Below the pieces are notes generated by a model. The model was not told the origin of the DNA. It saw only the letters and a program-made list of their open reading frames with translations, and ran no database searches. From positions 1,463,346 to 1,527,345 of the forward strand of contig NZ_HE978574.1 of the NCBI RefSeq assembly GCF_000311845.1: a DNA stretch of 64,000 nucleotides, given 5' to 3'. The stretch's first letter is position 1. Each line of letters opens with the position of its first letter. The position numbers were made by a program, and so were the translations under genes. This document shows, piece by piece, positions 2,241 to 40,735 of this stretch. The stretch is from Enorma massiliensis phI. GTDB taxonomy: Bacteria; Actinomycetota; Coriobacteriia; Coriobacteriales; Coriobacteriaceae.

Positions 2241-2275
2241 TTTCTCTACATCCCCGACAACGAGCCCGAGACGCA

Positions 2276-2372
2276 GGAAGGCCCCGGAGGGATTCCTTCG
2301 CGCGTTTCCCGCAGCTGCTCGGCTCTGCCGAGCAGCGAGGACCACGCGCGGAGGAACCCTCCGGGGCCTTCC
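2276..2372. repeat. Nested-hairpin element (copy 1) downstream of argS
   Basis: A 29-30 bp outer stem pairs 2276-2305 with 2344-2372, with one bulge and one mismatch. It encloses a perfect 10-bp hairpin (2314-2323 with 2327-2336, 3-nt loop). The core carries TTCCCGCAG at 2306, TCGGCTCTGCCGA at 2319 and GCGAGGACCA at 2335. The same core, with a different outer stem, is found inverted at 40641-40678. It may end argS transcription (argS stops at 2398 on the minus strand), but it has no U-tract. Confidence 0.75.
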
Positions 2373-2397
2373 CATGGGAGCCGAAGGCTCGTTCAAC

Positions 2398-4242
2398 CTA
2401 CATCTGCGTAGGCGCGGACACACCGATGAGCGAGAGGCACAGGGCGATCACCGAACGCACGGCGTCGCAGGCACCAAGGCGCGCACGGACGACCGCCGGA
2501 TCAACCGGACGGCCCTCGCTCGGCAGCACCTGGCAAGCGGCGTAGAAGCTATGGAACGCAGACGCGAGCTCTTCGACATAGTGCGTGATACGGAACGGGG
2601 CACGGTCGCGGGCTGCGCCGGCGATGAGATCCTGAAGCTCAGAGAGCTTGCGGGAGAGCGCAAGCTCGGTGGGATCGGTGAGCAGCGAGTAGTCGACGTC
2701 GCCGTAGATGGCCTTGATGGCCACGTTCTCCATGCCCATGAGGTCGGCCTGCTCGGGCGTGACGCCTGCAGCCTTGCGCAGGATGGAGCAGATGCGCGCA
2801 TGAGCATACTGCACGTAGAAGACGGGGTTATCGGCCGTCTTCTCCTTGACCTTCTCGATGTCGAAGTCGATGGTCTGGTTGGAGGAACGGCTCACGAGCG
2901 TGTAGCGGGCCGCATCGGCGCCCACCTCGTCGATAAGCTCGCGGAACGTAATCATCGTACCCTTGCGCTTGGACATACGGATCGGCTTGCCGTTGCGAAG
3001 GAGGTTCACGAACTGGCCCAGCGGCACCTCGAACTGCCCGGGGTAGCCAAGAGCGTCGCACACGGCCTTCACGCGCGCGATATAGCCGTGGTGGTCGGCG
3101 CCCCAGATGTCGAGAACGCGGTCGACGCGCTGGAACTTGTTCCAGTGATAGGCGATGTCGGACGAGAAGTAGGTGTAGTCGCCATTGGACTTCTGGATGA
3201 CGCGGTCCTTGTCATCACCGAACTCGGTGGACTTGAACCACAGCGCGCCATCGTCGGTGCGGTAGAGATAACCCATCTTGTCGAGCTTGTCGTAGGCGCG
3301 CTCCACCGGCGAGGTGCCCGTCCAGTCCTTCTGGTACATGGTGCGCTCGCTCATCCACACATCGAAGTCGCAGCGCACGTCGTGACAGGTCTCCTTCATG
3401 TCCTTGAGCATCTTCTGGTAACCGCGCTCGCGGAAGCTGAGCATGCGCTCCTGGGGATCAGCGTTCACCCACTTGTCGCCGTCGGTCTTCCAGAAGGCAG
3501 CCGCCTCGTCGATGATGTAGGTGCCGCCATAGGAGTCCTTGCCCAGGTCGGCCGTGAAGTCATCCATGTAGGGATGGCTATCGGGGTGCTCGTCGGCCTC
3601 GTCCTGAACGTAGTTGTCGCGATCCTTGGCAAGGAAGTCGCGCGCGGCGTCGATATCGCAGCCCTGCTTCTCGATGATGTCGGCAAGCTGCATATAGCGC
3701 TTGGAGATCGAGTTGCCGAAGGTGTTCATCTGGTTGCCGTAGTCGTTGATCCAGAACTCGCGCTCGATGTCGTAGCCGGCGTGCTCCATGACGCGGCACA
3801 TCGAGTCGCCGAGCGCAGCCCAGCGGCCGTGACCCACGTGCATGGGGCCCACAGGGTTAGCGGACACGAACTCGACCTGGGTCTTGAGGCCGCCGCCCAC
3901 GTTGGACTTCGCAAAGTCCATGCCCTGCTCACGCGCCTCGGCGAAGACGGCGTTCTTCGCTGCAACGGAGAGGTAGAAGTTGATGAAGCCGGGGCCGGCG
4001 ATCTCGACCTTCTCCACGACGTCGCTCTCGGGCAGGTACTTCACGATCGCCTCGGCGATGGCGCGGGGAGCCTGGTGGGCGAGCTTGGCGGATTTCAACG
4101 CCATGGTGGAGGTCCACTCGCCGTGAGAGGTGTCCGCCGGTCGCTCGATGCCACAATCTTCCAGCTCGAATGCGGGCAGGTCGCCGGCTTCCTGGGCGGC
4201 GGCGAGAGCGGCGCGAACCAGCTCTTCGATCTTCTCGGGCAT
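2398..4242 (-). CDS. argS: Arginyl-tRNA synthetase
   Basis: This class I aminoacyl-tRNA synthetase (614 aa) charges tRNA-Arg in the cytoplasm. The order is an N-terminal Add-1-like domain, a Rossmann catalytic domain with the HIGH-equivalent HVGHGR at residues 135-140, the KMSKS-equivalent MSKRKG near 423-428, and a C-terminal DALR anticodon-binding domain (PVFYVQYAHARI near 467 onward) ending in a methionine. Length fits ArgS. The ATG at 4242 has an ideal AAGGAGGAATTG ribosome site; the frame stays open further upstream without a site. A likely promoter lies on the minus strand in the 250-bp gap shared with the divergent carD. No T-box leader was recognised. Confidence 0.97.
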   Translation of the reverse strand: MPEKIEELVRAALAAAQEAGDLPAFELEDCGIERPADTSHGEWTSTMALKSAKLAHQAPRAIAEAIVKYLPESDVVEKVEIAGPGFINFYLSVAAKNAVFAEAREQGMDFAKSNVGGGLKTQVEFVSANPVGPMHVGHGRWAALGDSMCRVMEHAGYDIEREFWINDYGNQMNTFGNSISKRYMQLADIIEKQGCDIDAARDFLAKDRDNYVQDEADEHPDSHPYMDDFTADLGKDSYGGTYIIDEAAAFWKTDGDKWVNADPQERMLSFRERGYQKMLKDMKETCHDVRCDFDVWMSERTMYQKDWTGTSPVERAYDKLDKMGYLYRTDDGALWFKSTEFGDDKDRVIQKSNGDYTYFSSDIAYHWNKFQRVDRVLDIWGADHHGYIARVKAVCDALGYPGQFEVPLGQFVNLLRNGKPIRMSKRKGTMITFRELIDEVGADAARYTLVSRSSNQTIDFDIEKVKEKTADNPVFYVQYAHARICSILRKAAGVTPEQADLMGMENVAIKAIYGDVDYSLLTDPTELALSRKLSELQDLIAGAARDRAPFRITHYVEELASAFHSFYAACQVLPSEGRPVDPAVVRARLGACDAVRSVIALCLSLIGVSAPTQM

Positions 4243-4490
4243 GCAATTCCTCCTTGAAAAATGCTTCGGTACCCTCCCAGGGCACGCACATACAAGTAGT
4301 TGAACTATAGCACACCCCATGCGAGCTGCGCGGGAGCTGAGGAATCTCGAACGCGCTATACACAAAGGAGCGGGGCCCGCCCGATGCATCCGAATCGTGC
4401 CCTTCGTGTTCATTTTGAGGGACATCGGCATAAATCCGCACGTAAACGTGGTATTCTATATATCAAGGTAGCTTAATAGTTGGAGGAAGC

Positions 4491-35460: not shown

Positions 35461-35561
35461 GTTCAGGGCGTGTCTCCTGCGCGAGTTCCGCACGAGCCGG
35501 AGGCGCCAGCGGCGCCTCCGAGCGAGCAGGACTGCCCGAGCGCAGGAGACACGCCCTGAAC
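35461..35561. repeat. Nested-hairpin element (copy 3) between serC and serA
   Basis: A perfect 22-bp outer stem (35461-35482 with 35540-35561) encloses a perfect 9-bp hairpin (35499-35507 with 35511-35519, 3-nt loop). TTCCGCA at 35486 and GCGAGCAGGAC at 35522 recall the core of copies 1 and 2. The right arm ends 15 bp before the serA start, next to its ribosome site. The structure could therefore affect serA translation or read-through from serC. Confidence 0.75.
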
Positions 35562-39401: not shown

Positions 39402-39614
39402 CGGGAGCGTTCCCCTAACGTAAAGCGTGGCCGTCGTACGCAAAGCATAATCGTCGCGCGCACGGCGCGGCTATCTAGCGAAAAGCGTAGTTGTGAAAGG
39501 TTCATACCCTTCGCGCCGGTGCCATAGCGCGCCGAGCAAGTTGAGTTATTGTACCCATGCAAGTTTCATAGAGCAAACATAGATACTTTGATCGATCAGG
39601 GAAGGACGGCCCTC

Positions 39615-40586
39615 TTGAATACCCAGCAGGCACTTGATTACGCATACGCGTTTTATATCCCCGAGTTCATCTTCGGTGGCGGCTACGAGGTCATGGAGGC
39701 GGAACGCCAGAAGGGCGAGGAGGCGCTGAAGGCGCTCGTCGCCGCCTGGAATGAAGGCCAGGACACCTCGTTCGGCTTCGACGTGGTGCGCGAGCTCGGC
39801 GATCGCAACCGCGCGCTCTGCGATGCCATCGGCGAGTCGCGCCTCCGCAACACCGCGAGCAGCGTGCTCGCGCGCAGCCTCTCCGACCGCGACATCTGCC
39901 AAGGCATCGCAACGATGCAGGGCCGCACGCTCGCCTCGGTCGAGCGCGAGGTGCGCGGTGACCGCAACGCACTCGGCGTCGCCTATGTGCGCGAGAAGGT
40001 CAGTGGCACCGTGCTGGGTATCGACATAGAGACCACGGGCACCGCACCCGAGCGCGGCTACATCATCAACGTCGGCTGGGAGCTTATGGACCTCACGAGC
40101 ACCGCGGTGCCGCGCGACGGCGAAGCGCACTTCTTCGGCCTGCCCGAGAACCCCTACAAGGAAACCGGCGTCCCGCTCGAGAACATCCACCACATCAGCT
40201 GGTCGGACATCGAGGGCAAGCCGCTCTTCCGCGAAGACCGCGAGTTGCAGGCACGGCTCCTCGACCTTATGACGAGCCACCCCATCATGGCCCACAACGC
40301 CGCTTTTGAGGACTCCTGGTTCATGATGCACCTCGAGGGCTATGCCGAGGCGCGACGCGAGGGCAAGATCGTGGTCATCGACTCGCGCGACATCTGCCGC
40401 CGCCTCGACGGTGAAGTTGTCTCGCTGCCGCGCGAATCCGCTCCCGCCGCCCTTGAGAACTGGGCGCGCCGCCGTGGGACCCTTGCGGAAAACGAAGCCG
40501 AGCGCCATCAGGGCCTCGAGGATACCGATCTCATGCTTCGAACGGTGCAGGCAGAATTCAACCGAAAGTCAATGTTCGCAGCGTAA
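39615..40586 (+). CDS. DEDD-family 3'-5' exonuclease domain protein
   Basis: The 323-residue protein has an N-terminal helical region of ~125 residues without a clear match, then an exonuclease domain of the DnaQ type. ExoI is GIDIETTG near residue 135, ExoII falls in IMAHNAAFEDSWF near 223-236, and ExoIII is in HQGLEDTDLMLR near the end. The acidic metal ligands are all present, so it is probably active on DNA or RNA ends. The TTG at 39615 is chosen because GAAGGACGG precedes it; an ATG at 39549 falls within what looks like the promoter. No partner polymerase gene is nearby. Confidence 0.8.
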   Translation: MNTQQALDYAYAFYIPEFIFGGGYEVMEAERQKGEEALKALVAAWNEGQDTSFGFDVVRELGDRNRALCDAIGESRLRNTASSVLARSLSDRDICQGIATMQGRTLASVEREVRGDRNALGVAYVREKVSGTVLGIDIETTGTAPERGYIINVGWELMDLTSTAVPRDGEAHFFGLPENPYKETGVPLENIHHISWSDIEGKPLFREDRELQARLLDLMTSHPIMAHNAAFEDSWFMMHLEGYAEARREGKIVVIDSRDICRRLDGEVVSLPRESAPAALENWARRRGTLAENEAERHQGLEDTDLMLRTVQAEFNRKSMFAA

Positions 40587-40735
40587 GGCCTCGCTCCCCC
40601 TGGGCGTCCCTCTGCGCACGCGGCGGCCCTTGCCCCTCGCTGGTCCTCGCAGTTCGGCATGGCCGAACTGCTGCGGAAGCGCTCGGGGCAAGGGCCGCCG
40701 CGTGCGCAGAGGGATGCCATGCGCTTAGGCCTTAC
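40583..40735. repeat. Nested-hairpin element (copy 2), convergent intergenic
   Basis: A perfect 29-bp outer stem (40608-40636 with 40685-40713) extends with one G-U pair to 34 bp. A more distal GTAAGGCC/GGCCTTAC pair lies at 40583 and 40728. The inner hairpin is 40649-40658 with 40662-40671, 3-nt loop. Read on the minus strand, the core matches copy 1: TTCCGCAG (40671-40678), TCGGCCATGCCGA (40654-40666) and GCGAGGACCA (40641-40650). It lies between the convergent exonuclease and permease genes and includes the exonuclease stop codon. Confidence 0.8.

Follow-up and report, generated by a model that had tools for sequence, protein, structure and literature searches.

Two long hairpins in a 64,000-nt stretch of the genome of Enorma massiliensis phI, a member of the Coriobacteriaceae (contig NZ_HE978574.1, positions 1,463,346-1,527,345; this whole stretch is called the window below), belong to a family of palindromes that share one conserved core. 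On balance, this family probably represents a dispersed non-coding palindrome that is seeded by its core at gene 3' ends and formed by fold-back template switching. The mismatch pattern of the arms and the inverted gene ends found beside the hairpins point to templated copying rather than to RNA-type covariation.

The core strand reads TTCCGCA-[small hairpin]-GAGGACCA and occupies the middle of a long palindrome with arms of free sequence. The conserved part comprises about 25 nt and a small apical hairpin; it is nearly invariant and is probably kept so by selection. In copy 1 (2276-2372) the core is TTTCCCGCAG-(10 bp, 3-nt loop)-CGAGGACCA within arms of about 28 bp, and in copy 2 (40583-40735, minus strand) it is CTTCCGCAG-(10 bp, 3-nt loop)-CGAGGACCA within a perfect 30-bp arm. 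Both fold into one plan, which on the core strand, from the outside inwards, is composed of: a stem P1; two mismatches, usually GA against GA (a position that is paired in copy 1); a short stem P2, of 2 bp in type B elements such as copy 2 and of 5 bp in type A elements such as copy 1; a 3x3 loop (KMT against CCA); YCC against GGA; an internal loop (GCA against GA); a stem P4; and a loop of about 3 nt. A covariance model was built from 11 type B copies of the E. massiliensis genome and gave 96 bits for copy 2, itself among the 11, and 62 bits for copy 1 (E 7e-12 in the window), which is outside them. Sequence, fold and model scores thus bear out the core and nested-hairpin plan described for both copies in the initial annotation. 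The same annotation held that the arms are unalike at every site; this is true of copies 1 and 2, whose arms have nothing in common, but not of the genome as a whole, where several copies share an outer GGAAGCCCC..GGGGCTTCC. The limits given for copy 2 include an outer inverted pair, GTAAGGCCT and AGGCCTTAC, which starts at the stop codon of a gene; with AGGCCTTAC 136 bp beyond GTAAGGCCT, copy 2 carries a short version of the inverted gene-end copies treated below.

Features of the element family and of the adjoining genes in the window
Feature	Position	Strand	Basis or remark
Copy 1, outermost inverted arm AACGAGCC	2259-2266		Sequence; outer-stem scan, score 8; pairs with 2386-2393
Copy 1, left outer arm (P1 and P2), one bulged A	2276-2304	+	Fold; covariance-model alignment
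Copy 1, core 5' side TTTCCCGCA	2305-2313	+	Alignment; CCGCAG at 2309
Copy 1, inner hairpin P4, 10 bp, loop TCT	2314-2336	+	Fold
Copy 1, core 3' side GAGGACCA	2337-2344	+	Sequence
Copy 1, right outer arm	2345-2372	+	Fold; covariance-model alignment
Copy 1, outermost inverted arm GGCTCGTT	2386-2393		Between argS stop and hairpin
argS-type ORF, taken to be arginyl-tRNA synthetase from a reading of the protein sequence	2398-4431	-	Copy 1 directly past its stop codon, core strand antisense to the ORF
Third, diverged member, long palindrome with core TTCCGCA..GCAGGAC	35468-35553	+	Covariance model, 23.4 bits, E 0.005
ORF taken to be exonuclease-like from a reading of the protein sequence	39549-40586	+	Copy 2 starts at its stop codon
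Copy 2, outermost inverted arm GTAAGGCCT	40583-40591		Contains the TAA stop of the upstream ORF
Copy 2, outer arm P1, gene side	40607-40636	-	Fold
Copy 2, core 3' side GAGGACCA	40641-40648	-	Read on the minus strand
Copy 2, inner hairpin P4, 10 bp, 3-nt loop	40649-40671	-	Fold; covariance-model alignment
Copy 2, core 5' side TCCGCA	40672-40677	-	Minus strand; covariance-model alignment
Copy 2, outer arm P1, far side	40685-40714	-	Perfect complement of 40607-40636
Copy 2, AGGCCTTAC, inverted copy of 40583-40591 at the ORF end	40727-40735		Sequence

Another repeated module is present in the window at 2085-2250, where three tandem GC-rich small palindromes (GGCGCGCAGCGCCGAGCCCC and CCCGTGCACGG) follow one another 58 bp apart; it is also found 3' of the hairpin at several other genome sites (L002, L003, L010 and L018).

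The initial annotation had described the copies as a family, and the covariance model found many more of them in related genomes, with arms that pair. Missing copies or unpaired arms, which the annotation had named as signs of chance similarity and of ordinary terminators, were not what the search returned. In the E. massiliensis genome 33 distinct places were matched at E<0.001, a count that rests on searches and may include some long hairpins in which the core has decayed. The model matched 27 of 61 genomes, E. massiliensis included, all of them Coriobacteriaceae, and none of 24 genomes from other families of the order. Scanning DNA from 85,000 species for the exact core gave, among the matches listed, Collinsella, Enorma, other Coriobacteriaceae and assemblies of mostly rumen Clostridia. 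The rumen Clostridia carry 3-19 exact-core copies per genome, against a single match of the reversed-pattern control over all 14 genomes. Across 390 further Clostridia genomes, sampled over the whole class, the exact pattern occurred four times, never with a hairpin, and Coriobacteriia outside the family gave single matches only, in numbers close to those of the reversed-pattern control. According to these scans, two distant lineages therefore possess the element and most of their relatives lack it; core and plan are common to both lineages, and the arms differ. Four matches were obtained in a viral collection, none with paired arms by eye. In one rumen Clostridia genome (L090, 2340-2600), three cores are arranged in tandem, 100 bp apart.

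The elements are located directly 3' of stop codons, at dozens of genes that are unrelated to one another, and the core is antisense to the gene. For 106 of 145 elements, the end of the antisense gene lies within 110 bp on the right side of the core, at a median distance of about 44 bp; in 71 cases no 3' end other than that of the antisense gene is near, and in 14 cases none other than that of the sense gene (binomial p 2e-10), these counts being based on ORFs called by simple scripts and on elements of related species, which are not independent. In E. massiliensis the genes concerned include, as we read their protein ends, argS, groEL, rpsJ, rplX, pta, fba and ispG. A core-bearing hairpin follows groEL in most genera of the Coriobacteriaceae, and the orthologous rplX, rpsJ, fba and pta sites across the family are occupied either by a core-bearing hairpin or by a simple terminator. 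A-tracts and T-tracts occur in the arms of the Clostridia elements, with the longer T run on the sense strand in 43 cases and on the other strand in 13; the T tract is within the arm there, and the Coriobacteriaceae elements show only a TGCGTTT tail.

Several loci deserve separate mention. The elements L002 and L010 adjoin the 3' ends of rplX and rpsJ, which usually precede further ribosomal-protein genes; if these two elements terminate transcription, ribosomal-protein operons would be split. In genome G003, near-identical 190-bp 3' regions that include the element follow groEL and an argS-orthologous gene (L283 and L304), and one of the two contigs ends within the repeat. At L396, L403 and L405, two convergent genes end in similar residues across the element, where the palindrome possibly reached both coding ends. 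At L006 (1500-1650), a full type A element adjoins a type B element of which one half survives.

This placement suits another reading, in which the element is a vertically inherited structured RNA of mRNA 3' ends, either an elaborate terminator or a protein-binding hairpin, whose arm pairing is kept by RNA selection. The single orientation at 3' ends, the presence of the element in the groEL 3' UTR of most genera of the family, the nearly invariant core and the Clostridia arms, with A- and T-tracts as in bidirectional terminators and longer T runs on the sense strand, all argue for such an RNA. We nevertheless regard it as unlikely, while granting it an appreciable chance. Of 179 elements, 80 have an apical loop of the stable GNA type and 3 a TNC loop, and the mismatches of P4 on the core strand are mainly A.G; both features make the antisense (core) strand the better folder. 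Furthermore, the same core in a distant phylum is not predicted by a vertically inherited RNA, and neither are the inverted copies of coding ends described below.

The pairing of the arms bears on the same question. In the 11 aligned type B copies, 97.5% of the pair cells are standard pairs, a level reached by none of 500 shuffles. Of the 29 pairs, 19 vary on both sides; all 67 changes counted are double and none is confined to one side, and consequently these copies contain no G-U pair at all. Selection on the pairing of a transcribed RNA predicts mismatches that lean towards G-U on the transcribed strand. Among about 4,000 arm pairs from 171 element candidates (this collection, like that of 196 elements used for the attC comparison below, may contain some false members), 42 A.C and 34 G.T mismatches were counted on the core strand, which correspond to 42 G.U and 34 A.C on the sense strand, so that neither strand is favoured. 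Simple terminators at the same loci gave 34 G.T and 11 A.C isolated mismatches. The terminator-like G-U bias on the transcribed strand is thus absent from the elements, an argument of modest weight (Fisher p 0.03). Such a balance fits copying as the source of the matched arms, or their maintenance as DNA palindromes. The initial annotation had taken the kept pairing as direct evidence of a selected structure: the pairing is indeed kept, but the conclusion is weakened, because wobble pairs are not preferred and because template switching can match arms without selection.

Pairing between the two sides often extends beyond P1. Outer-stem scores of at least 8 were obtained for 19% of the Coriobacteriaceae elements and 28% of the Clostridia elements, as against 1-2% when the sides were exchanged between elements. 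When the last 36 nt of the CDS were compared with the 60 nt beyond the hairpin at a cut-off score of 8, an inverted copy of the coding end was detected in 10 of 55 and 16 of 84 elements, that is 26 of 139 (about 19%), a total that still includes L151; this ambiguous locus is not used as evidence, since a convergent gene ends on its downstream side. Controls gave 3% and 5% with gene ends and flanks exchanged between elements, and 2% and 5% with a window 150 nt further on. Only one of 94 simple terminators had such a copy (p 1e-5 against the elements); here too, the ORFs come from a simple script and the elements are not phylogenetically independent. The longest reach was examined by eye at L108, where the copy extends 27 nt into the CDS with 23 identities. 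At an mreB-like locus, two genomes (G062 and G065) have the element together with the copy, and in six relatives the site holds a simple terminator and no copy; since the coding end is identical in all these genomes, the downstream side is the copy. The loci L138 and L108 behave alike in this comparison of occupied and empty sites, and an 18-nt copy within coding sequence is present at L160 in a single genome (L376). The direction of copying is therefore established at the loci tested. The counts and the occupied and empty orthologous sites agree with an option that the initial annotation had raised, namely an element that makes inverted copies of the DNA beside it. About four fifths of the elements have no detectable copy of coding sequence, so that other routes may exist beside copying, or copying may mostly stop within the 3' UTR. 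Among near-identical genomes, no birth event came to light.

In brief, fold-back template switching could proceed as follows. The conserved core with its apical hairpin would arrive directly past a stop codon, and the core-carrying strand would fold back on the core hairpin. Its 3' end would then be extended with the adjacent upstream sequence (3' UTR and coding end) as template, which would place an inverted copy of that sequence downstream and yield a long hairpin with local arms around the common core. The new hairpin would replace the 3'-end or terminator hairpin of the gene and plausibly serve as one. Later template switching between the arms, or function, would keep the inner P1 matched without wobble, while the outer copied part would decay over time. 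Copying of this kind accounts for a common core with local arms, for the lack of wobble, for the direction of copying and for the replacement of terminators. Within this scheme, priming by fold-back from the core, correction of the arms by template switching, use of the element as a 3'-end signal, and transfer of the core from locus to locus and across phyla are each presumed steps.

A related but rather improbable alternative dispenses with a mobile core: ordinary terminators would have been lengthened and perfected by quasi-palindrome template switching, and their cores kept alike by gene conversion between copies. Arm correction without wobble is expected here too, and near-identical elements at the two G003 loci are in agreement with it. 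P4 has 10 bp in 21 of 24 copies of E. massiliensis and in all six of genome G001, and 3-5 bp in most other genera, which indicates spread or homogenisation of the copies in these two genomes, as concerted evolution predicts. However, the core in Clostridia is left unexplained, and the near absence of inverted copies from simple terminators at the same loci implies that the core matters.

Mobilisation of a REP/BIME-type palindrome by a Y1 transposase (RAYT) would agree with dispersed extragenic palindromes at gene ends, with the tandem copies at L090 and with the three Y1_Tnp genes of E. massiliensis, but it is very improbable, since PF01797 is absent from four Clostridia genomes with 9-19 copies (G061, G062, G065 and G068), no element core is found at RAYT genes, at least two of the three RAYT genes of E. 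massiliensis (L243 and L248, the third being L251) are flanked by other palindromes, and flanking direct repeats of at least 8 nt are not in excess (3.6% of elements, 1.5% by chance). The palindromes that accompany these RAYT-like genes are REP-like, for example GAGACAGTTGTGCCGGGTTAAACTGTCTC and GTCAAAATGGGACGGGGTTGTTTTGAC, and unrelated to the element. As a partner of the family, RAYT/REP was rejected, as it neither co-occurs with the element nor has the core at its loci; the direct-repeat frequencies gave no sign of the target-site duplication of a DDE transposon or MITE.

More tentatively, and with less than even chances, the family might be a new kind of mobile DNA, in which a tiny hairpin core spreads between genes and phyla, joins a strand end at a gene 3' terminus, primes fold-back copying, builds its arms locally and becomes the 3'-end hairpin of the gene. 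The family as such suggests a route by which a tiny sequence could spread and replace terminators of housekeeping genes in gut bacteria. When stem arms covary, this is usually taken to prove that an RNA structure is under selection; in the present family, the mirror-image gene ends indicate that copying is at least in part the origin of the matched arms, which makes the family a warning case for RNA-motif discovery and a natural collection of template-switch events.

Known systems resemble the element in part. Rfam release 15 contained no family that matched at the gathering threshold, and permissive searches returned miRNA hairpin-type and other sub-threshold matches; a full-text literature search, with most subscription journals outside its scope, gave no description of the motif. 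Palindromic candidate RNAs have been discussed in general (PMC8040213). The best relevant Rfam match, obtained with the core strand, was DUF3800-VIII (26.8 bits for a gathering score of 40.2). The DUF3800 RNA motifs (RF03075 and others) also form a long hairpin, but the element scores below threshold and several carriers are devoid of DUF3800 genes. A DUF3800 partner was rejected, PF12686 being absent in G000, G061, G062 and G065, and no core being found near DUF3800 genes. Integron attC sites likewise have a folded strand antisense to the gene, a location at the gene 3' end and free stems; they were discarded, as RYYYAAC and GTTRRRY boxes at the base of the stem were present together in none of 196 elements. 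REP/BIME sequences with RAYT are likewise short extragenic palindromes, scattered at the 3' ends of genes and at times in tandem, whereas the element has site-specific arms and inverted gene-end copies, and the Clostridia carriers tested lack RAYT. In mitochondria of Nematomorpha, coding palindromes consist of long perfect inverted repeats (PMC6649704), and long perfect inverted repeats that involve coding sequence are likewise seen here; unlike in the element, the arms there lie within coding sequence, and the abstract of that source reports no common core.

Bidirectional Rho-independent terminators are closer: they too follow stop codons, the Clostridia elements have A- and T-tract arms, and simple terminators occupy orthologous sites. 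The element differs from them by its internal-loop core, its arms of about 20-45 bp, its lack of wobble preference and, in Coriobacteriaceae, by what appears to be the usual lack of a U tract. Quasi-palindrome template-switch mutation is known in Escherichia coli (PMC7202029) and in yeast (PMC3820800), and there, as proposed for the element, templated copying matches the arms of inverted repeats. Unlike these mutations, the element is centred on one conserved core at many loci and enters coding ends. The mark of template switching, one arm that copies a pre-existing flank, is present in the family, as seen from the coding-end copies and the empty sites.
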